From Blautia hansenii (lineage in GTDB: Bacteria > Bacillota > Clostridia > Lachnospirales > Lachnospiraceae), in the NCBI RefSeq assembly GCF_013304445.1, contig NZ_JAAITA010000003.1:62001-126000 (forward strand): 64,000 bases of DNA, read 5' to 3'. Positions within the stretch are counted from its first letter, which is position 1. Each line of letters begins with the position of its first letter. Position numbers and translations under genes: made by a program. Under the pieces are notes generated by a model that was given only the letters and a program-made list of their open reading frames with translations, was not told where the DNA came from and searched no databases. Positions 22,639 through 63,350 of the stretch are shown here, in pieces.

Positions 22639-22917
22639 CAGAAAAAGGTGATGAGAAAGAGGAGTACGTCTTGGAAACCGGCAGAGAGGACAATTCACCG
22701 GCTGAAAGATTGTCTGGGAGGGAAGAGACGGAAGGTAGCTTTTGAACCGGGGAACTGAAGAATCGGCTTGATACAGAAAAAAGTAGAGAAAAGGGTTTGG
22801 TAGGTTTCCACGCGTCGTCTGCGTTAAGGGACTTCAGAGTGATAAATAAAGGTGGTACCGCGATGACAGTCGCCCTTTGTAACTATTTTTTGAAAGATGG
22901 TTATGGAGGGGCTTTTT
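22639..22917 (+). ncRNA. T-box leader of valS (valine specifier GTA)
   Basis: The 506-bp gap before valS holds a T-box riboswitch. Stem I has a GATGA kink-turn motif, the AGTA bulge, an AGAGAG distal motif and, on the 3' side, GAAGGTAGC. The lower stem pairs GGT..GAAAG with CTTTTGAACC. That places the triplet GTA (22735-22737), a valine codon, in the specifier position. The conserved T-box AAAGGTGGTACCGCG is at 22848-22862 and a terminator follows. Uncharged valyl-tRNA should stabilise the antiterminator and allow valS expression. The 140 bp before the promoter hold nothing recognisable. Confidence 0.93.
22872..22917 (+). terminator. Regulated terminator of the valS T-box
   Basis: GCCCTTTGTAACTA (from 22872) pairs with the downstream TGGTTATGGAGGGGC and is followed by TTTTTG. 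The 5' part overlaps sequence next to the T-box motif, as expected for mutually exclusive terminator and antiterminator forms. Confidence 0.85.
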
Positions 22918-30852: not shown

Positions 30853-30914
30853 TAACTACAAAGACAGACCTATTGGCACAGCAGGGAAAGTGATTGCAGA
30901 AAGGGGAAGAAAGA

Positions 30915-31250
30915 ATGGAAGAAAACATGGTAAAACGGGGAAATCGGCTGATTGTCTATGTGCCCAGAGAACTGGATCATCATTTTGCAGAGCAGATAAC
31001 AGAGACATTGGATCAGGAGCTGGAAAAGGGGATTGTCCGCCAGCTGGTCTTTGATTTCTCTGCCACAACCTTTATGGACAGTTCGGGAATCGGTATGATT
31101 ATGGGAAGAAAGCGGCTTTTAAGCTGCTGCGGAGGCACAGTAAGCGCCATTCATGTCAACGATAGAATCTGGCGCATTATGCAGCTTTCCGGGATTTATA
31201 AACACATTGAAATCAGCCAGGAAGCGGTATGGAACCGCAAGATGCGATAG
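30915..31250 (+). CDS. spoIIAA: Anti-sigma F factor antagonist SpoIIAA
   Basis: A 111-residue STAS-domain protein. Unphosphorylated SpoIIAA binds SpoIIAB and frees sigma F in the forespore; SpoIIE dephosphorylates it and SpoIIAB phosphorylates it. The phospho-site block is TFMDSSGIGMIMG, with Ser57 equivalent to the known Ser58. The ATG at 30915 is used because GGGGAAGA precedes it; upstream in-frame codons from 30894 lack a ribosome-binding site. It is first of the classic spoIIAA-spoIIAB-sigF operon. Confidence 0.95.
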   Translation: MEENMVKRGNRLIVYVPRELDHHFAEQITETLDQELEKGIVRQLVFDFSATTFMDSSGIGMIMGRKRLLSCCGGTVSAIHVNDRIWRIMQLSGIYKHIEISQEAVWNRKMR

Positions 31251-31262
31251 GAGGGGAGAAGA

Positions 31263-31706
31263 ATGGAACATAAAAACAAAATGGTGCTGGAAGTGGAGAG
31301 CCGTTCCTGCAATGAAGGGCTGGCCAGAATAGCTGTGGCGGCCTTTGCCACTCAACTGAATCCTACTTTGGAGGAGGTGGCGGATATTAAAACCGCAGTG
31401 TCTGAGGCCATTACCAATTGTATTGTCCATGCATACGAGAAAGAAACAGAGCTTATCCGCATTGAGTGCTTCTGTCAGAATAAAGAACTGACAGTCATTA
31501 TCCGGGATACGGGAAAAGGCATCGAGGATGTGAAAAGGGCCATGGAACCTCTTTTTACCACGAAGCCGGAACAGGACCGCTCCGGTATGGGGTTTGCCTT
31601 TATGGAGGCCTTTATGGACCGAGTATCGGTGGAATCCTGTCCGGGCAGGGGCACATCCGTAACCATGAAAAAAATCATCGGAAGGCAGAATTCGGTTTTT
31701 GAGTAG
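31263..31706 (+). CDS. spoIIAB: Anti-sigma F factor SpoIIAB
   Basis: A 147-residue GHKL-fold serine kinase that holds sigma F inactive in the predivisional and mother cells and phosphorylates SpoIIAA. The N-box is TAVSEAITNCIVHAYE, followed by the G1 box IRDTGKGI and the G2 region RSGMGFAFMEAFMDRV. The length fits the family. AGGAGGGGAGA precedes the ATG, and the gene starts 12 nt after spoIIAA. Confidence 0.96.
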   Translation: MEHKNKMVLEVESRSCNEGLARIAVAAFATQLNPTLEEVADIKTAVSEAITNCIVHAYEKETELIRIECFCQNKELTVIIRDTGKGIEDVKRAMEPLFTTKPEQDRSGMGFAFMEAFMDRVSVESCPGRGTSVTMKKIIGRQNSVFE

Positions 31707-31714
31707 GAGGTTAT

Positions 31715-32428
31715 ATGGATGAGATTCTTGCCCTTATCGGGCGCGCGCACCAGGGAGATAAGAGAGCAAGAGAGATACTGACAGAAAACAATATGGGACT
31801 GGTTCACAGCATTGCCAGAAGGTTTCAGAACCGGGGCGTGGAGATGGAGGATTTGATACAGATTGGATGTATCGGTCTTTTAAAGGCCATTGACAAATTT
31901 GATACTTCCTATGATGTGCGGTTTTCCACATATGCCGTGCCTATGATAACCGGAGAAATCAAGCGGTTTTTAAGAGATGACGGCATGGTAAAAGTCAGCC
32001 GGTCTTTAAAGGAAACTGCGGCTAAAGCCTACACGGTCCGGGAAGAACTTTTCCTCAAGGAGGGGAAAGAGCCCCGGATGGAAGAAATTGCCCGGGAACT
32101 TGGAATCACCAGAGAGGAGCTGGTACTGGCCATGGACTCTCAGGGACAGGTGGAATCTCTGCAGAAAACCATTTACCAAAGCGAAGGAAATGAAATTTCG
32201 CTGGAGGACAAGCTGCCTTTGGAGGAAAACCAGCAGGAAATGGTGGTGAACCGTATGTTTTTAGAACAGGCTCTCGGAACTTTGGACCGCAAAGAGCGAG
32301 AATTGATTTACCTGCGCTTCTTTCAGGACAGAACCCAGAGCAGCATTGCGCAGCAGATGGGAATGTCTCAGGTACAGGTTTCCCGCATGGAGAAAAAAAT
32401 TTTAAACAGACTGCGGGCAAATCTCTAG
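31715..32428 (+). CDS. sigF: RNA polymerase sigma F factor
   Basis: A 237-residue sporulation sigma factor, the first forespore-specific one. Region 2 (NMGLVHSIARRFQNRGVEMEDLIQIGCIGLLKAIDKFD) includes the core-binding and -10 recognition helices, region 3 lies around 110-150, and the region 4 helix-turn-helix is RTQSSIAQQMGMSQVQVSRMEKKIL. The gene follows spoIIAB by 8 nt with AGGAGGTT upstream. Sigma F versus sigma G is decided by the spoIIA context. Confidence 0.96.
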   Translation: MDEILALIGRAHQGDKRAREILTENNMGLVHSIARRFQNRGVEMEDLIQIGCIGLLKAIDKFDTSYDVRFSTYAVPMITGEIKRFLRDDGMVKVSRSLKETAAKAYTVREELFLKEGKEPRMEEIARELGITREELVLAMDSQGQVESLQKTIYQSEGNEISLEDKLPLEENQQEMVVNRMFLEQALGTLDRKERELIYLRFFQDRTQSSIAQQMGMSQVQVSRMEKKILNRLRANL

Positions 32429-32438
32429 GCACAAAAAG

Positions 32439-32467
32439 GCATATTTTACGGAAAATCAGCCATACTA
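32439..32467 (+). promoter_or_regulatory. Forespore (sigma G/sigma F) promoter of the spoVA operon
   Basis: GCATA (32439-32443) is followed by exactly 17 bp and CATACTA (32461-32467). This matches the sigma G/F consensus known from Bacillus (-35 GCATA, -10 CATACTA), 11 nt after the sigF stop and 32 nt before spoVAA. spoVA is sigma-G-controlled in B. subtilis, so the site is in the expected place. Confidence 0.8.
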
Positions 32468-32498
32468 ATCTCCAAAGCAAAAGCAAGGAGGCTGTCAG

Positions 32499-33113
32499 AT
32501 GAGTGAAATTTTATATATACAGACAGAGAAAAATGTAGAAGTCTATCAGCCGGAGGTGTATCTGCAGGATGTGGCCAAGCTGGCCTGCGGGGATTCTAAA
32601 GTGTTAAACCGCAACAAAATCCGCAAAGTGTTTTCCATTCCCGATGAAAAGCCGGGGCGGTATGTGATTTCCGCGGCAGACCTGGTCTGCGCAGTGGCAA
32701 AAGCGGAACCAAACGTAGACGTGACTCATATTGGAGAAGCGGATTTTATTGTAACTTATGAGGGGGAAAATCAACCCAGAAAGTGGATAAGCTGGCTGAA
32801 AACAGTTCTGGTATGTGTATTGACCTTCTTTGGAGGCGCTTTTTCCATTATGACCTTTAATACAGATGTAAATATGTCTGGTTTGTTTTTTCAGCTTTAC
32901 CGTCAGTTTACCGGGGAAATTTCCACGGGTCATACCATTTTGGAATTCTGCTATTCCGTGGGTATCGGTATTGGGGTAGTGTTCTTTTTCAACCACTTCG
33001 GACACAGAAAGCTGACCCAGGACCCAACCCCCATGGAGGTGCAGATGCGGGTATACGAAGATGATGTAAACCGTACCCTCATAGCGGTAAAAAACAGAGG
33101 AGGAAAACTGTGA
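32499..33113 (+). CDS. spoVAA: Stage V sporulation protein AA
   Basis: A 204-residue protein with a soluble N-terminal domain (about 1-95) and two membrane segments (about 100-120 and 145-170). It matches the SpoVAA length and layout. SpoVA proteins form the inner-spore-membrane channel for dipicolinic acid uptake during sporulation and release in germination. AAGGAGGC precedes the ATG. It overlaps spoVAB by 4 nt (ATGA-type). Confidence 0.88.
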   Translation: MSEILYIQTEKNVEVYQPEVYLQDVAKLACGDSKVLNRNKIRKVFSIPDEKPGRYVISAADLVCAVAKAEPNVDVTHIGEADFIVTYEGENQPRKWISWLKTVLVCVLTFFGGAFSIMTFNTDVNMSGLFFQLYRQFTGEISTGHTILEFCYSVGIGIGVVFFFNHFGHRKLTQDPTPMEVQMRVYEDDVNRTLIAVKNRGGKL

Positions 33114-33529
33114 TGTGGCCCGGTGAAGCTGTGGCGGCAGCAGCGGCTTTCTGCGGCGGCGCTGTGGTAGCTACCGCGCTCGCCGCTTTTATTATTGAGC
33201 TGGGTATCATCCCCCGTTTTGCAGGAATCACCCATACAGCCAATCACATCCTTTTGTACGAAACCTGCCTTATGCTGGGCAGTTTTTTGGGAAATCTGGT
33301 ATCCGTCTATGAGTTTTCGCTGCCTTTTGGTAAGATTTTTCTGGGAATTATGGCGCTGTGCTTTGGCATTTTTTTGGGAAGCTGGATTATTGCGCTGGGC
33401 GAAGTGGTCAATGTCTTTGCCATTATGTCCCGCCGCCTGGGTCTGAAAAAAGGAACGGCGCTCATTATCCTGTCCATAGCCCTGGGAAAGATTTTGGGAA
33501 GTCTTCTGCAGTTTTTTCTCTGGAAATAA
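33110..33529 (+). CDS. spoVAB: Stage V sporulation protein AB
   Basis: A 139-residue, almost entirely hydrophobic protein with about four membrane segments, typical of SpoVAB. Its ATG overlaps the end of spoVAA, so translation is coupled. It is an inner-spore-membrane partner in the dipicolinate channel. A 120-bp gap follows before spoVAC; no hairpin or convincing second promoter was recognised in that gap. Confidence 0.88.
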   Translation: MMWPGEAVAAAAAFCGGAVVATALAAFIIELGIIPRFAGITHTANHILLYETCLMLGSFLGNLVSVYEFSLPFGKIFLGIMALCFGIFLGSWIIALGEVVNVFAIMSRRLGLKKGTALIILSIALGKILGSLLQFFLWK

Positions 33530-33649
33530 CCAGGGAAAACAAACTGGAATAAAAATCGAAAACCCGCACACACTAACTCAGAGTGGGAAAGCGTTCGTTT
33601 TCTAAGGACACAGTTCCTCTCTCAAAATACAAAAAGGAGGTATCCTCTC

Positions 33650-34126
33650 ATGCCAACACCACAAAGTGAAGAGCAAAAGAGAAAAGCCAAGGAATACGAA
33701 GCATACGTAAAGAAAAAAACACCTACCCACAGCCTGCTTCTGAATATGGCAGGAGCCTTTATCATGGGTGGACTGATTTGTGTGGCAGGACAGGTGATTT
33801 TAAATATCTGCAAAAACATGGGGATGAACCAGGAAATAAGCGGTGCATGGACTTCGCTGCTTTTGGTACTGGCCAGTGTCCTGCTTACCGGATTCGGCAT
33901 ATATCCCAAGCTGGCAAAATGGGGTGGAGCCGGAACTTTAGTGCCTATTACCGGATTTGCAAATTCCGTAGCAGCTCCGGCTATTGAATACCAGAAGGAA
34001 GGACAGGTTTTTGGCATCGGCTGTAAAATTTTTACCATAGCCGGCCCGGTGATTCTCTATGGGATTTTAACCTCATTCTTTCTGGGACTGATTTATTACT
34101 TTCTGCATATGTGGGGGATTGTGTAA
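33650..34126 (+). CDS. spoVAC: Stage V sporulation protein AC
   Basis: A 158-residue membrane protein with about four hydrophobic segments. SpoVAC features include KEYEAYVKKKTPTHSLLLN near the start and WGGAGTLVPITGFANSV in the middle. SpoVAC behaves as a mechanosensitive channel component for dipicolinate in B. subtilis. AAAGGAGG lies upstream. Its stop overlaps the spoVAD start (TAATG). Confidence 0.94.
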   Translation: MPTPQSEEQKRKAKEYEAYVKKKTPTHSLLLNMAGAFIMGGLICVAGQVILNICKNMGMNQEISGAWTSLLLVLASVLLTGFGIYPKLAKWGGAGTLVPITGFANSVAAPAIEYQKEGQVFGIGCKIFTIAGPVILYGILTSFFLGLIYYFLHMWGIV

Positions 34127-35139
34127 TGGAACAGATGATAGGGAAACAAAGCGTACAGTTTGAACGGGCCGTGCATATTTTAAGCGCAGCCTCTATTGTA
34201 GGAAAAAAAGAGGGGGACGGTCCTCTGGGGAAGTGTTTTGACCGGATAGGAGAAGCGGACGGACTTTTTGGCCGCAAATCCTGGGAGGAGGCAGAAAGCT
34301 TTCTTCAAAAAGAAGCGGTTTCCATGGCGATTGAAAAGGCGGGGATTGAGAAGTGGCAGCTGCGGATGATTTTTGCTGGAGATTTACTGGCGCAGACCAT
34401 TGCCTCCTCTTTCGGTATTATGGGATTTCATACTCCGGTATACGGTCTGTATGGAGCATGCTCAACTATGGGAGAGGGACTTTCTCTGGCGTCCATGGCT
34501 GTGGCAGGAGGATATGGAGAATATGTGGCAGCAGTCACGTCCAGTCATTTTGCCAGTGCAGAGAAGGAATTCCGTTTTCCCCTGGGATACGGAAGCCAAA
34601 GACCTCTTTCTGCTACCTGGACGGTGACGGGAAGTGGGGCCTGCATTTTGGGAACAAAGGGCGGAAAGGCAAGGATTACGGGAATCACCACAGGAAAAAT
34701 TGTGGACTTTGGTCTGAAGGATTCCATGAATATGGGAGCCTGTATGGCGCCTGCAGTCTGTGATTCCATTTATCAGAATCTCATGGATTTTAACCGGCTT
34801 CCAGAAGATTACGACCGGATTATCACCGGGGATTTGGGACAGGTGGGGCAGAGAATTCTGTTTGACTTGCTGAAAGAAAAAGGATTTGATATTGAGAAAC
34901 AGCATATGGACTGCGGCATAGAAATTTTCGACGCGGATACCCAGGATACCCATGCCGGGGGCAGCGGTTGCGGCTGTGCAGCCGTTACTCTGGCCGGCTA
35001 TATTCTGCCCAAGGTGGAAAAGGGGGAATGGAAGCGGGTGCTTTTTGTTCCTACGGGAGCGTTGCTCTCCAAGGTCAGCTACAACGAGGGAAAAAGCGTG
35101 CCGGGCATTGCCCAGGCTGTTGTGATAGAACATTGTTGA
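34126..35139 (+). CDS. spoVAD: Stage V sporulation protein AD
   Basis: A 337-residue thiolase-like protein that binds dipicolinic acid at the outer face of the inner spore membrane. Recognisable segments are GLYGACSTMGEGL, the RPLSATWTVTGSGA region and HAGGSGCGCAAVTLAGYILP. The ATG at 34126 shares a base with the spoVAC stop and gives the normal length; an in-frame ATG at 34111 would overlap spoVAC and adds five residues. It forms a unit with spoVAC and spoVAE. Confidence 0.95.
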   Translation: MEQMIGKQSVQFERAVHILSAASIVGKKEGDGPLGKCFDRIGEADGLFGRKSWEEAESFLQKEAVSMAIEKAGIEKWQLRMIFAGDLLAQTIASSFGIMGFHTPVYGLYGACSTMGEGLSLASMAVAGGYGEYVAAVTSSHFASAEKEFRFPLGYGSQRPLSATWTVTGSGACILGTKGGKARITGITTGKIVDFGLKDSMNMGACMAPAVCDSIYQNLMDFNRLPEDYDRIITGDLGQVGQRILFDLLKEKGFDIEKQHMDCGIEIFDADTQDTHAGGSGCGCAAVTLAGYILPKVEKGEWKRVLFVPTGALLSKVSYNEGKSVPGIAQAVVIEHC

Positions 35140-35151
35140 GGAGAAGAGAAG

Positions 35152-35508
35152 ATGGATTATGTAAATGCATTCTGGGTAGGCGGGCTGATTTGCGCTCTGG
35201 TACAGATTCTTCTGGAAAAGACAAAGCTGCTGCCGGGAAGAATTATGGTGCTTCTGGTATGTGCCGGAGCAGTGCTTGGGAGTGTGGGATTGTACGACAA
35301 GCTGATTTCTTTTGCAGGAGCCGGAGCCAGTGTTCCTTTGCTGGGTTTTGGCAATACTTTATTTAAAGGGGTGAAGAAGGCTGTGCTGGAACACGGTTTT
35401 CTGGGACTTTTCATGGGAGGATTTACCGCCAGTGCAGTGGGAATTTCTGCAGCTTTGATTTTCGGATACGTCGCAAGCATTCTCTTCCGTCCGAAGATGA
35501 AGAATTAA
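35152..35508 (+). CDS. spoVAE: Stage V sporulation protein AE
   Basis: A 118-residue membrane protein with about four hydrophobic segments, matching the SpoVAEb length. The pattern FAGAGASVPLLGFGNTLFKG resembles the related motif in SpoVAC. It starts 12 nt after spoVAD with GAGGAGA upstream. It ends the spoVA cluster; the next 320 bp hold the upstream region and leader of the ethanolamine operon. Confidence 0.92.
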   Translation: MDYVNAFWVGGLICALVQILLEKTKLLPGRIMVLLVCAGAVLGSVGLYDKLISFAGAGASVPLLGFGNTLFKGVKKAVLEHGFLGLFMGGFTASAVGISAALIFGYVASILFRPKMKN

Positions 35509-43659: not shown

Positions 43660-44310
43660 ATGAAACGAGACCCAGTAAGAGCTACAGTCCTTGCATCCAA
43701 AATTATCCCCAATGTGAGCCCGGATATGGCGAAAGAACTGAATCTGGAGCCGGGAATGAAATCTCTGGCCCTGATTACGGCGGACAGTGATGATGTTACC
43801 TATACAGCTCTTGATGAAGCAACGAAAAAAGCAGATGTAAAAGTGGTTTATGCAAAGAGTTTCTATGCAGGCGCTGCAAATGCAAATACCAAACTGGCAG
43901 GAGAGATCATCGGAATTCTGGCAGGTCCCAACCCTGCAGAAGTCAGGAGCGGACTGGAAGCCTGCGTGGACATGATTGAAAATCAGGCATATTTCATTTC
44001 CGCAAACGAAGATGATTCCATTATTTACTATGCACAGTGCATTTCCAGAACCGGTTCTTACCTTTCCGAAGGCGCAGGCATTCAGGAAGGAGAGGCCCTG
44101 GCTTATCTTATCGCCCCGCCTCTGGAAGCGATGTACGGCGTAGATGCCGCTTTAAAAGCAGCAGATGTAAAAATGTGCGTACTGTACGCACCGCCATCAG
44201 AAACGAACTTCGGCGGCGCACTGCTTACAGGAAGCCAGTCTGCGTGCAAGGCTGCCTGTGACGCTTTTGCAGCGGCGGTAGAATTTGTGGCTGAGAATCC
44301 TAAAGAATAA
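43660..44310 (+). CDS. eutL: Microcompartment shell protein EutL
   Basis: A 216-residue tandem BMC-domain (trimer-forming) shell protein of the EutL type. The first domain begins RATVLASKIIPNVSPDMAKEL, and the second has YLSEGAGIQEGEALAYLIAPP. EutL trimers form a gated central pore in shell facets and can bind ethanolamine. AGAGGAGG precedes the ATG. Confidence 0.95.
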   Translation: MKRDPVRATVLASKIIPNVSPDMAKELNLEPGMKSLALITADSDDVTYTALDEATKKADVKVVYAKSFYAGAANANTKLAGEIIGILAGPNPAEVRSGLEACVDMIENQAYFISANEDDSIIYYAQCISRTGSYLSEGAGIQEGEALAYLIAPPLEAMYGVDAALKAADVKMCVLYAPPSETNFGGALLTGSQSACKAACDAFAAAVEFVAENPKE

Positions 44311-44363: not shown

Positions 44364-44945
44364 ATGAATGCACTGGGAATGATTGAGACATACGGCTACC
44401 TTACGGCAGTAGAGGCTTTGGACAGTGCATTAAAGGCTGCCAATGTATTTTTGGTAGATGTGGTTCGGGTAAGAGGCGGTCTGGTGACTGTGCTTATCGA
44501 AGGAGACGTAGGTGCAGTGAAAGCTGCGGCAGATGCCGCAGCGGCTGCAGCCGAAAGAGTGGGAGAAGTGGTAAGCGTGCATGTGATTCCGCGGCCTGAT
44601 AAGGACGTAAAGAGCATGCTCACTGCACACCCTGAACACCGGAAGAAAGCTGATATGGTACCGGAAGAATCCCCGGCAGAAGTATCAGCAGAAGAGCCGG
44701 AGAACACACCCGCCGAAGAACAGAAAGAGCAGCCCGTACAGAAGTCCGAAGAGAGCAGGACAGAAAATCCGGTTGAGGCAGAGCTGGTTTATACCAGAGA
44801 GGAAATGGGGAAGATGACCGTAGCCAAACTGAGAACTCTGGCACGGAAACTGAAACTCACCGGTCTGACCCCGCAGGAAATCCGCTTTGCCAAGAAGCAG
44901 GAACTGATTGAGGCTATCCTGAAAATTACCGGAGAAAAGAGGTAG
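44364..44945 (+). CDS. EutK-like shell protein: BMC domain plus Rho-N/SAP-like tail
   Basis: A 193-residue fusion. Residues 1-85 are a BMC-H domain ([20 protein letters not shown] ... VHVIPRP). Residues 90-145 form an acidic Pro/Glu linker. Residues 151-187 ([18 protein letters not shown] followed by [12 protein letters not shown]) match the helix-turn-helix pattern of the Rho N-terminal/SAP fold, which usually binds nucleic acid. E. coli EutK also has a BMC domain followed by a putative nucleic-acid-binding domain, but of winged-helix type. Here the position in the operon is the same and the tail differs. Binding partner unknown. Confidence 0.85.
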
Positions 44946-44948
44946 ATT

Positions 44949-46424
44949 ATGCAGTTATATGACAAAGACCTTTTGTCAGTACAGGAAGTACGCGAACTGG
45001 TAGAAAAAGCCAAGTCTGCACAGCAGGAACTGGCAGCAAAAAGCCAGGCAGAGGTGGACAGAATCGTGAAATCTGTGGCACAGGCAGGCGTAAGAAATGC
45101 ACAGCGTCTTGCAAAACTGGCACATGAAGAAACCGGATTCGGCGTAGAGGCTGACAAAGTAATCAAAAACGTATTCGCCAGCGACGGCGTATACCAGCAC
45201 ATCAAAGATATGAAAACCATAGGGGAACTGAGCCGGGACGAAGAACATAAAATTCGTACCATCGCAGTTCCGGTAGGGGTGATTGCAGGACTGATTCCTT
45301 CTACAAACCCTACCTCCACCGCATTGTATAAATCAGAGATTGCCATTAAAGCGGGAAATGCCATTGTATTTTCTCCCCACCCCAACGCAAGAAACAGTAT
45401 TCTGGAAACCGTAAAGGTTATCCGTCAGGCCATTGCAGAGGCAGGTGGAAATGAAAATCTGGTATCCTGTATTACCATTCCGACCATACAGGCGACAGAC
45501 AATCTTATGCGCCACCCGGACGTCTCTATGATACTGGCTACGGGCGGTTCGGCTATGGTAAGAGCCGCATATTCATCGGGAACTCCCGCTATCGGCGTGG
45601 GACCGGGAAACGGCCCGGCCTATATTGAGAAGACAGCAGATGTGAAACTGGCTGTGAAACGGATTCTGGATTCCAAAACGTTTGATAACGGCACTATCTG
45701 TGCTTCCGAGCAGTCCGTGGTATGCGAGGAAGGGATGCGCAGGGAAGTACAGGCCGAGATGGAACGACAGGGCGCTTATTTCCTGATGCCGGACCAGATG
45801 AAAAAGCTGGGAAGCTTTATTTTAAGAGCCAACGGAACCATGAATCCCATGATAGTGGGAAAATCTGCACAGGTCATTGCAGATTTGGCAGGAATTGAAA
45901 TACCAAAAGATACCAGAGTGCTGGTGGCAGAGGAAACCGGCATCGGAAGAGGACACCCGTATTCCAACGAAAAACTGGCGCCGATTCTGGCTTTTTACAC
46001 AGCGCCGTCCTATGTGGAAATCTGTGAACTCTGTACGGAAATCCTTCACTACGAAGGCGCAGGACATACCTTCTCCATGCACACGAAAGATGAGAGCATG
46101 GTAACTTATTTCGCACAGAGAATTCCCGCTTCCAGAATTATTGTCAATACCCCCAGCGCGCTTGGCGGTATCGGAGGAACCACAGGGCTGCAGCCGTCTC
46201 TGACCCTTGGCTGCGGCGCTGTAGGAGGAAGTGCAACTTCTGAAAATGTGGGACCGAAGCATTTGATGAACCTGCGCTATGTGGCAGAGGGGCTTTCCGA
46301 ACTGGAAGACATCCGAAACAAGCTTCCGGACTGTTCCGAAGGTATCTGCAAACCGCAGAAATACGATGATATTGATATTGACGCAGTGGTAAGCGAAATT
46401 ATCAGGCGTCTTCAGAATTCTTAA
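44949..46424 (+). CDS. eutE: CoA-acylating acetaldehyde dehydrogenase EutE
   Basis: A 491-residue aldehyde dehydrogenase that turns acetaldehyde, CoA and NAD+ into acetyl-CoA. The catalytic Cys251 is in FDNGTICASEQSVV, the cofactor region is ATGGSAMVRAAYSSGTPAIGVGPGN. Unlike enteric EutE there is no separate N-terminal targeting helix; instead a C-terminal extension ends in an amphipathic helix (DIDIDAVVSEIIRRLQNS) after a linker, a typical encapsulation peptide. It begins 3 nt after the EutK-like gene, so the two are tightly coupled. Confidence 0.95.
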   Translation: MQLYDKDLLSVQEVRELVEKAKSAQQELAAKSQAEVDRIVKSVAQAGVRNAQRLAKLAHEETGFGVEADKVIKNVFASDGVYQHIKDMKTIGELSRDEEHKIRTIAVPVGVIAGLIPSTNPTSTALYKSEIAIKAGNAIVFSPHPNARNSILETVKVIRQAIAEAGGNENLVSCITIPTIQATDNLMRHPDVSMILATGGSAMVRAAYSSGTPAIGVGPGNGPAYIEKTADVKLAVKRILDSKTFDNGTICASEQSVVCEEGMRREVQAEMERQGAYFLMPDQMKKLGSFILRANGTMNPMIVGKSAQVIADLAGIEIPKDTRVLVAEETGIGRGHPYSNEKLAPILAFYTAPSYVEICELCTEILHYEGAGHTFSMHTKDESMVTYFAQRIPASRIIVNTPSALGGIGGTTGLQPSLTLGCGAVGGSATSENVGPKHLMNLRYVAEGLSELEDIRNKLPDCSEGICKPQKYDDIDIDAVVSEIIRRLQNS

Positions 46425-46454
46425 ACATGAGAAAAGCAAAAGGAGGATATGAAT

Positions 46455-46739
46455 ATGGCAGCACAACAGGCACTTGGAATGATTGAAACAAAGGGATTGG
46501 TAGCGTCCATAGAAGCAGCCGATGCCATGGTAAAGGCAGCAAACGTGACTCTGATTGGAAAAGAGCACGTAGGAGGAGGTCTTGTAACCGTTATGGTAAG
46601 AGGTGACGTAGGCGCAGTAAAAGCAGCTACAGACGCAGGAGCAGCCGCAGCGGAGCGCGTAGGTGAGCTGGTTTCCATCCATGTAATCCCAAGACCACAT
46701 GAAGAAGTAGAGGCAATTCTGCCATCTGTAAACAGATAA
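46455..46739 (+). CDS. eutM: Microcompartment shell protein EutM, copy 1
   Basis: A 94-residue BMC-H shell hexamer subunit ([40 protein letters not shown]). It is the main facet protein of the organelle. The ATG at 46455 is preferred to one two codons earlier because copy 2 has only the later site behind the same AGGAGG. It differs from copy 2 in five residues near the C-terminus (V/I, A/S and the final VNR versus LAK). Confidence 0.95.
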
Positions 46740-46769: not shown

Positions 46770-47054
46770 ATGGCAGCACAACAGGCACTTGGAATGATTG
46801 AAACAAAAGGACTGGTAGCGTCCATAGAAGCAGCAGACGCCATGGTAAAGGCAGCAAATGTGACTTTGATTGGAAAAGAACATGTAGGCGGAGGCCTTGT
46901 AACCGTTATGGTAAGAGGTGACGTAGGCGCGGTAAAAGCGGCAACAGACGCAGGTGCGGCTGCAGCGGAACGCGTAGGCGAACTGATTTCCATTCATGTA
47001 ATCCCAAGGCCCCACGAAGAAGTGGAATCCATTCTGCCCTCTCTTGCAAAATAA
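46770..47054 (+). CDS. eutM: Microcompartment shell protein EutM, copy 2
   Basis: A 94-residue BMC-H protein almost identical to the gene 30 nt upstream. The first 72 residues are the same, yet many third-codon positions differ, so the copy is old and kept by selection. The duplicated unit includes the AAAAGGAGGATA ribosome-binding region. Two EutM copies may raise shell dosage or give mixed hexamers with different C-terminal edges. A short GC hairpin follows. Confidence 0.95.
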
Positions 47055-63158: not shown

Positions 63159-63246
63159 AACAAGTGCTGTGACATGATAGCTATGAAGCGCGAGGTTGCT
63201 GTCAAAGACAGGTTTTCCGTGGAGCGAATGTCAAGTTAGGAAACTG

Positions 63247-63350
63247 ACGACAAGTCACTGTATTACATCTAAAGACTTACCACTAAGGTGGGAGTGTGTG
63301 TAGAAATCAAGATGACACACACGGGAATGTGTACAGTCGCCGCTTGTCGT
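63247..63350 (+). ncRNA. Structured leader of the S10 operon
   Basis: ACGACAAG (63247-63254) pairs with CTTGTCGT (63343-63350), enclosing a hairpin GTGTGTGT (63294-63301) / ACACACAC (63315-63322). The leader lies between the promoter and rpsJ. Long S10 leaders in bacteria serve autogenous control by r-protein L4 (known in E. coli and proposed in Firmicutes); whether this one does is an inference. Confidence 0.6.

Follow-up and report, generated by a model that had tools for sequence, protein, structure and literature searches.

The closest described counterpart of the protein reported here is EutK from enterobacteria, a shell protein of the ethanolamine utilization (Eut) microcompartment. E. 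coli EutK (b2438) is composed of a single hexamer-forming bacterial microcompartment (BMC-H) domain, a linker and a C-terminal domain of a nucleic-acid-binding type, and its gene adjoins eutL. A similar arrangement is found in Blautia hansenii, in a 64,000-nucleotide stretch of contig NZ_JAAITA010000003.1 (positions 62,001 to 126,000, forward strand; this whole stretch is called the window below), where a gene between eutL and eutE encodes a BMC-H protein of 193 amino acids. The C-terminal domains are different. The E. coli tail is a winged helix (EutK_C, PF16365, 90 bits, with lesser matches of the helix-turn-helix type; structure 3i71), whereas the tail of the Blautia protein is a conserved basic domain which computation shows to be homologous to the helical domain at the N-terminus of Rho. 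The tail domain itself is of a known type; what is new, as a variation on the EutK theme, is its presence on a shell protein.

Among other described systems, CD1916 of Clostridioides difficile (listed as 'EutK, BMC protein' in PMC3483176) is also located between eutL and eutE and has about 233 residues by its listed coordinates and hence an extension; it was compared by listing rather than by sequence, and the accessible part of that paper names no tail domain. PduK of Salmonella likewise combines a BMC-H domain with a C-terminal extension and is required for normal compartment distribution (PMC9132943), but its extension is described as disordered (PMC12487888) and as of unknown function (PMC9132943). 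BMC-H extensions of up to 200 residues have been reported, with no tail domain named in the accessible text (Sutter 2021, PMC8217296). Similar in another respect are PhaM, PhaF, PhaH and AlgP, organelle-bound proteins with a non-specific DNA-binding C-terminus for which the domains differ between proteins (PMC13052382). Literature searches, covering mostly titles and the starts of abstracts, returned no publication that names a Rho_N/SAP-like domain on a BMC shell protein, and a Pfam or InterPro entry for the architecture may exist. Unlike the Blautia protein, PhaM and its functional analogs bind polyhydroxybutyrate (PHB) or polyphosphate granules, and they are not known to contain a BMC or a Rho_N domain.

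Scanned alone, the tail matches the Pfam family Rho_N (PF07498) with 25.8 bits at a cut-off of 24.9; the score is 21.8 bits, below this cut-off, when the whole protein is scanned and 25.1 bits with neighbors in a genome scan. The match to the SAP family is weaker (16.6 bits, cut-off 23.9). AlphaFold models of the tail (residues ca. 140-191, about 50 residues) confidently predict four short helices in the fold of the Rho N-terminal helical domain, with Rho N-terminal residues as the closest structural neighbors and SAP domains next. This agrees with the first-pass annotation, made from the letters and open reading frames of the window, which had proposed a Rho N-terminal/SAP-like fold. The tails share with Rho and SAP domains the core sequence pattern and basic residues before the last helix, but differ from them by their location on a shell protein and by an insertion of five residues, modelled as an additional short helix. 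Profile-profile comparison of the tails with clostridial Rho N-termini gave 98% probability and showed this insertion to be specific to the tails; the probability is favored by the fact that the 12 Rho N-termini had been collected with the tail profile itself, a selection of which the Pfam family and the Rho structures are independent. A PDB sequence search with the tail alone gave nothing convincing (best E 0.39).

The tail profile matched in 32 of 391 Clostridia genomes, two of the matches coming without a locus. Of the remaining 30 loci, 12 have BMC fusions and 16 have long Rho-like frames that are matched at the N-terminus; the other two are a 91-aa protein (L102) and an unclassified case (L087). 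NCBIfam names nine of ten tested non-BMC frames as Rho, L102 being unnamed. Because the matches are mostly BMC fusions and Rho N-termini, the relation between tail and Rho is more than a chance similarity. Further tails were collected by a scan of contigs which used five tails and required [QKE]EIR[FD]AKK, so that conservation of this motif is partly built in; conservation counts are therefore restricted to 17 tails found without it. Of these, 15 match Rho_N at E<=1, and basic residues occupy alignment columns 16 and 37 in all 17 and column 20 in 16.

The features of the gene and its direct surroundings are as follows.

44364..44945, + strand: whole gene for the BMC-H shell protein with C-terminal Rho_N-like tail, in the EutK position, 193 aa
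44353..44357, + strand: GGAGG, a ribosome-binding-site-like motif read from the sequence
44364..44645, + strand: BMC (hexamer-forming) domain, residues 1-94 in the model, Pfam match 3-78
44646..44780, + strand: acidic disordered linker, residues 95-139, from the per-residue model confidence (pLDDT), charge and substitution rates
44781..44942, + strand: basic four-helix Rho_N/SAP-like tail, residues 140-193, from Pfam, models, fold and profile comparison
44868..44900, + strand: loop-helix stretch with the insertion that is specific to the tail as compared to the Rho N-terminus, residues 169-179, from models and profile comparison
43660..44310, + strand: eutL, upstream neighbor (TIGR04502, 369 bits)
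44949..46424, + strand: eutE aldehyde dehydrogenase, downstream neighbor

The gene starts with ATG and its stop codon ends 3 bases 5' of eutE. A single BMC-H domain (PF00936, residues 3-78) is recognized with 89 bits at a cut-off of 24.5, and the modelled order of strands and helices is BMC-like. The linker has pLDDT values below 50 in the full-length model and a net charge of -10. Pfam, model and charge thus bear out the architecture read at first pass, a BMC domain followed by an acidic linker and a folded tail; the linker is acidic as stated, but its length is about 45-55 residues by the model instead of 60. The EutK position is equally clear from the flanking eutL and eutE genes, and we regard the protein as an EutK-type minor shell hexamer.

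Whereas the BMC domain and gene position resemble those of EutK, the tail does not. When compared with the E. coli EutK tail, used as a single sequence, the tail profile did not align (hhalign probability 0.1), in agreement with the earlier remark that the enteric tail is of another kind. EutK_C is absent from the Pfam matches of the 193-aa protein and has no match at E<=0.01 in the genome of the window, and among 42 Bacillota genomes that possess EutL or an EutL-like gene none reaches its cut-off. Since the E. coli tail is unlike the clostridial one and EutK_C stays below its cut-off in these 42 genomes, the eutL-adjacent position holds two different domains of nucleic-acid-binding type, one in E. 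coli and one in Clostridia. The NCBIfam model for EutK (PRK15466) aligns with residues 1-104 only and scores 75.2 bits at a cut-off of 218. E. coli EutK forms a long branch in a BMC tree, which does not decide on a common fused ancestor with the clostridial protein. In this quick tree, of 146 rows, the tailed domains of Oscillospiraceae were nearer to EutM. Domain shuffling, with the tail moving between EutK-like and EutM-like BMC domains, was considered and dropped: a single clade of tailed proteins was not rejected (p-AU 0.451), in a test of 17 rows versus 31 on an alignment of 89 columns with little resolution.

The tailed protein recurs in many related loci. The contig scan yielded 19 loci, of which 18 were readable, and all 18 encode a BMC-linker-tail protein; three of the 19 (L064, L065, L072) are apparently duplicate contigs of genomes G084, G203 and G051. 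Record titles place the loci in Lachnospiraceae genera, Oscillospiraceae, Flavonifractor, Intestinimonas and Butyricicoccus. The nearest named relative, from Candidatus Blautia stercoravium (Lachnospiraceae), has 92% identity across a 51-residue tail. EutL was found above cut-off in 15 of the 391 Clostridia genomes, and ten of these have a profile-matched tail. Among the other five, G661, G592 and G404 have a diverged extension, G350 an extension of 26 residues and G556 none. The tailed gene directly follows eutL in nine of the ten genomes; in G299 one BMC-H gene intervenes. In a separate draw from the phylum, 32 EutL loci above cut-off were present in 27 of 299 genomes, and in 11 of these loci (window included) the fetched stretch codes for a BMC-H protein extended by more than 50 residues. 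With the tail profile, eight of the 11 reached 30 bits or more and L120 reached 14.8; L108 and L122 gave no match. These phylum and genome counts are lower bounds, some stretches being cut by contig ends. Among 41 fetched loci in which a BMC-H protein has a tail or an extension (diverged ones included, the window excluded), the gene lies at most 100 bases after eutL in 36 and at most 100 bases before eutE in 37. In one of the scanned loci, L063:6217-7714 from Flavonifractor plautii, the eutE match is divided over two frames, with the split at about 6980 close to masked letters; assembly or masking is the probable cause.

Additionally, related tails are found in four loci for glycyl-radical compartments (L047, L156, L157, L158), each upstream of an aldehyde dehydrogenase. 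As signature enzymes they encode a glycyl-radical enzyme (PFL-like plus Gly_radical) and its radical-SAM activase. The former has 846 aa in L047 and is 85-88% identical in the other three loci; its substrate may be choline, a guess from the enzyme family. The L047 tail aligns with the eut tails with an hhalign probability of 97.1, and the eut-tail profile gives 47.3, 35.0 and 35.8 bits for the tails of L156, L157 and L158. The latter loci are three examined of 20 obtained in a search with the L047 protein, some BMC match being present in 74 of 245 genomes. The occurrence of related tails in such loci indicates that the tail is not a part specific to ethanolamine metabolism.

Several observations weigh against the picture drawn so far. 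The distance to eutL is about 4 kb in L116 and L130, that to the eutE match is 4.4 kb in L103, L133 has another BMC-H gene between eutL and the tailed gene and no eutE was found there, and the tailed gene of L064 has none of the searched eut or glycyl-radical genes, eutL and eutE included, within 6 kb. L148 has only a 26-residue extension and L146 no tailed protein. The extensions in L122 and in L046, a fifth glycyl-radical locus, contain no detectable Rho_N-like tail. Those of L108, L144 and L147 look helix-loop-helix-like by eye yet have no Pfam Rho_N match, and the matches of L145 and L120 are weak (E 0.017 and 0.1). The tails of L156-L158 lack a Pfam match and are linked only by their 35-47 bits with the eut-tail profile. 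Finally, EutK_C matches below cut-off (18-21 bits) occur in four of the 42 Bacillota genomes, in frames of 277-890 aa.

Some of these loci have features of their own. The tailed gene at L064:5587-6147, on the same contig as L045, stands beside infB-, rbfA-, nrnA-, truB- and ribF-like frames, as identified by eye. The eutL-adjacent BMC-H protein at L122:4530-5033 has a 77-residue extension with no recognizable domain and a short arginine/lysine-rich stretch near its end. The BMC-H protein at L046:6690-7337 carries an acidic extension of 126 residues whose end matches none of the profiles used.

Substitution patterns separate the tail from the linker. In nine pairs of close relatives the ratio of nonsynonymous to synonymous substitution rates (dN/dS) ranged from 0 to 0.13 in the BMC domain, from 0.17 to 0.62 in the linker and from 0 to 0.28 in the tail, with the linker above the tail in all nine; the pairs consist of the window and motif-selected contigs, several sharing a sequence, so that they are non-independent and somewhat favor the tail. 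The tail is thus under purifying selection and the linker less so. Of 27 proteins, 23 have a net positive charge over their last 52 residues (median +3) and 18 have a net negative linker (median -7). Recurrence in many loci, together with purifying selection, points to a selected function of the tail, as the first-pass annotation had supposed. The tailed protein is real, conserved and mechanistically suggestive.

What this function may be is suggested by work on other organelles. BMC-H proteins naturally have both their N- and C-termini at the outer face of the shell (PMC6787980). In Salmonella lacking EutK, Eut compartments are mainly at the poles and less mobile; a nucleotide-binding EutK tail and a ParB-like action of EutK were suggested as possibilities (PMC12487888); Pdu compartments are at the poles when PduK is lacking (PMC9132943). 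Non-specific DNA-binding proteins attach granules of PHB and polyphosphate to the nucleoid (PMC13052382). By analogy, each hexamer of the Blautia protein would display six basic tails into the cytosol on flexible, mostly acidic tethers, and since BMC-H termini point outward these tails could reach the nucleoid. Their ligand would be nucleoid DNA, bound weakly and irrespective of sequence, or else RNA associated with the nucleoid. Through many such weak contacts the organelle would ride on the nucleoid and so be distributed over the cell and divided among the daughter cells. This mode of action would be akin to that of the PHB-granule proteins with DNA-binding tails, and enterobacteria would reach the same end with their winged-helix tail. 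We give even chances to the proposal that the Rho_N-like tail tethers the Eut organelle to the nucleoid in this way, through its putative binding of nucleic acid.

The tail could instead retain polysomes or eut mRNA at the shell for synthesis of shell and cargo at the organelle, or place an RNA on the shell. Its nearest relative is indeed a domain of an RNA-binding terminator, and the eut locus encodes an ANTAR response regulator, which is of an RNA-binding type. ANTAR genes, however, neighbor eut loci that carry the tail (e.g. G660, G406, G351) as well as eut loci that lack it (G746, G941, G689). Among the genomes with tailed glycyl-radical loci, G536 and G365 have the ANTAR gene on a different contig and G046 has it at a distance of about 0.8 Mb, while none was found in G416. 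For this reason a role of the tail in EutV/ANTAR RNA control was dropped as unsupported. Rfam, the only means by which RNA features were sought, gave no element in the eut locus of the window at gathering thresholds. The first-pass idea that the tail keeps operon RNA near the organelle thus found no support, and an RNA tether appears unlikely.

Docking of a protein has somewhat different evidence in its favor. LEM and peripheral-subunit-binding domains bind protein partners, and four of the 17 tails show weak HeH/LEM matches in Pfam; a helix-loop-helix tail might therefore bind a partner on the cytosolic side, e.g. a cytoskeletal or ParA-like protein or an enzyme. A functional tie to the aldehyde dehydrogenase is conceivable from the position of the tailed gene directly 5' of it in the 37 of 41 loci mentioned above and in the glycyl-radical loci, but this enzyme is luminal cargo. 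The tail, in view of the orientation of BMC-H termini (PMC6787980), should be outside the shell. The closest folds and profiles are those of Rho and SAP domains, basic positions are conserved, and the tailed gene of L064 has no searched eut gene nearby; we consider docking rather improbable. A further reading, in which the tail serves as an encapsulation peptide or is inert and left over from a gene fusion, is highly improbable. Encapsulation peptides are common on the cargo of these organelles (PMC6787980), and L148 lacks a tail while L122 has an extended protein without recognizable domain, but encapsulation peptides are amphipathic helices of about 20 residues that reach the lumen, whereas the tail is a confidently modelled four-helix domain of about 50 residues, under purifying selection and expected outside the shell. 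The models and the outward termini thus contradict both cases in which the first-pass annotation would have failed, i.e. the lack of a helix-loop-helix fold and a common encapsulation helix.

The eut operon of the window encodes, in this order, an ANTAR response regulator, a PdtaS-type kinase, EutA, EutB, EutC, EutL, the tailed BMC-H protein, EutE, two EutM-like proteins, a PduL-type phosphotransacylase and EutH. The eutM-like BMC-H genes (46449-46739 and 46770-47054, + strand) are near-identical and in tandem; relatives, e.g. L060 and L063, have a similar pair. Just 5' of the operon, spoIIA-sigF- and spoVA-like sporulation operons were recognized by eye (window 30894-35508). Elsewhere in the window Rfam identified a T-box leader (22642-22880, + strand) and an S10-Clostridia ribosomal-protein leader (63175-63253, + strand).

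If tethering to the nucleoid is the function of the Rho_N-like tail, it may extend beyond one organelle. Microcompartments may have recruited different tails, a winged helix in enterobacteria and a Rho-related domain in Clostridia, onto an outward-facing minor hexamer as a way of hitching to the nucleoid independently of ParA/McdAB, with the clostridial tail serving ethanolamine as well as glycyl-radical organelles; we propose this tentatively, at a little less than even chances. This bears on how metabolosomes are distributed and inherited: the 2025 Salmonella study showed that EutK controls distribution and left the mechanism of its tail to later work (PMC12487888). The clostridial Rho-like domain, different in kind but in the EutK position, is an independent replicate in evolution. 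It points to a function in contacting nucleic acid, and the Rho_N-like tail offers a small domain on which such contact may be tested directly.
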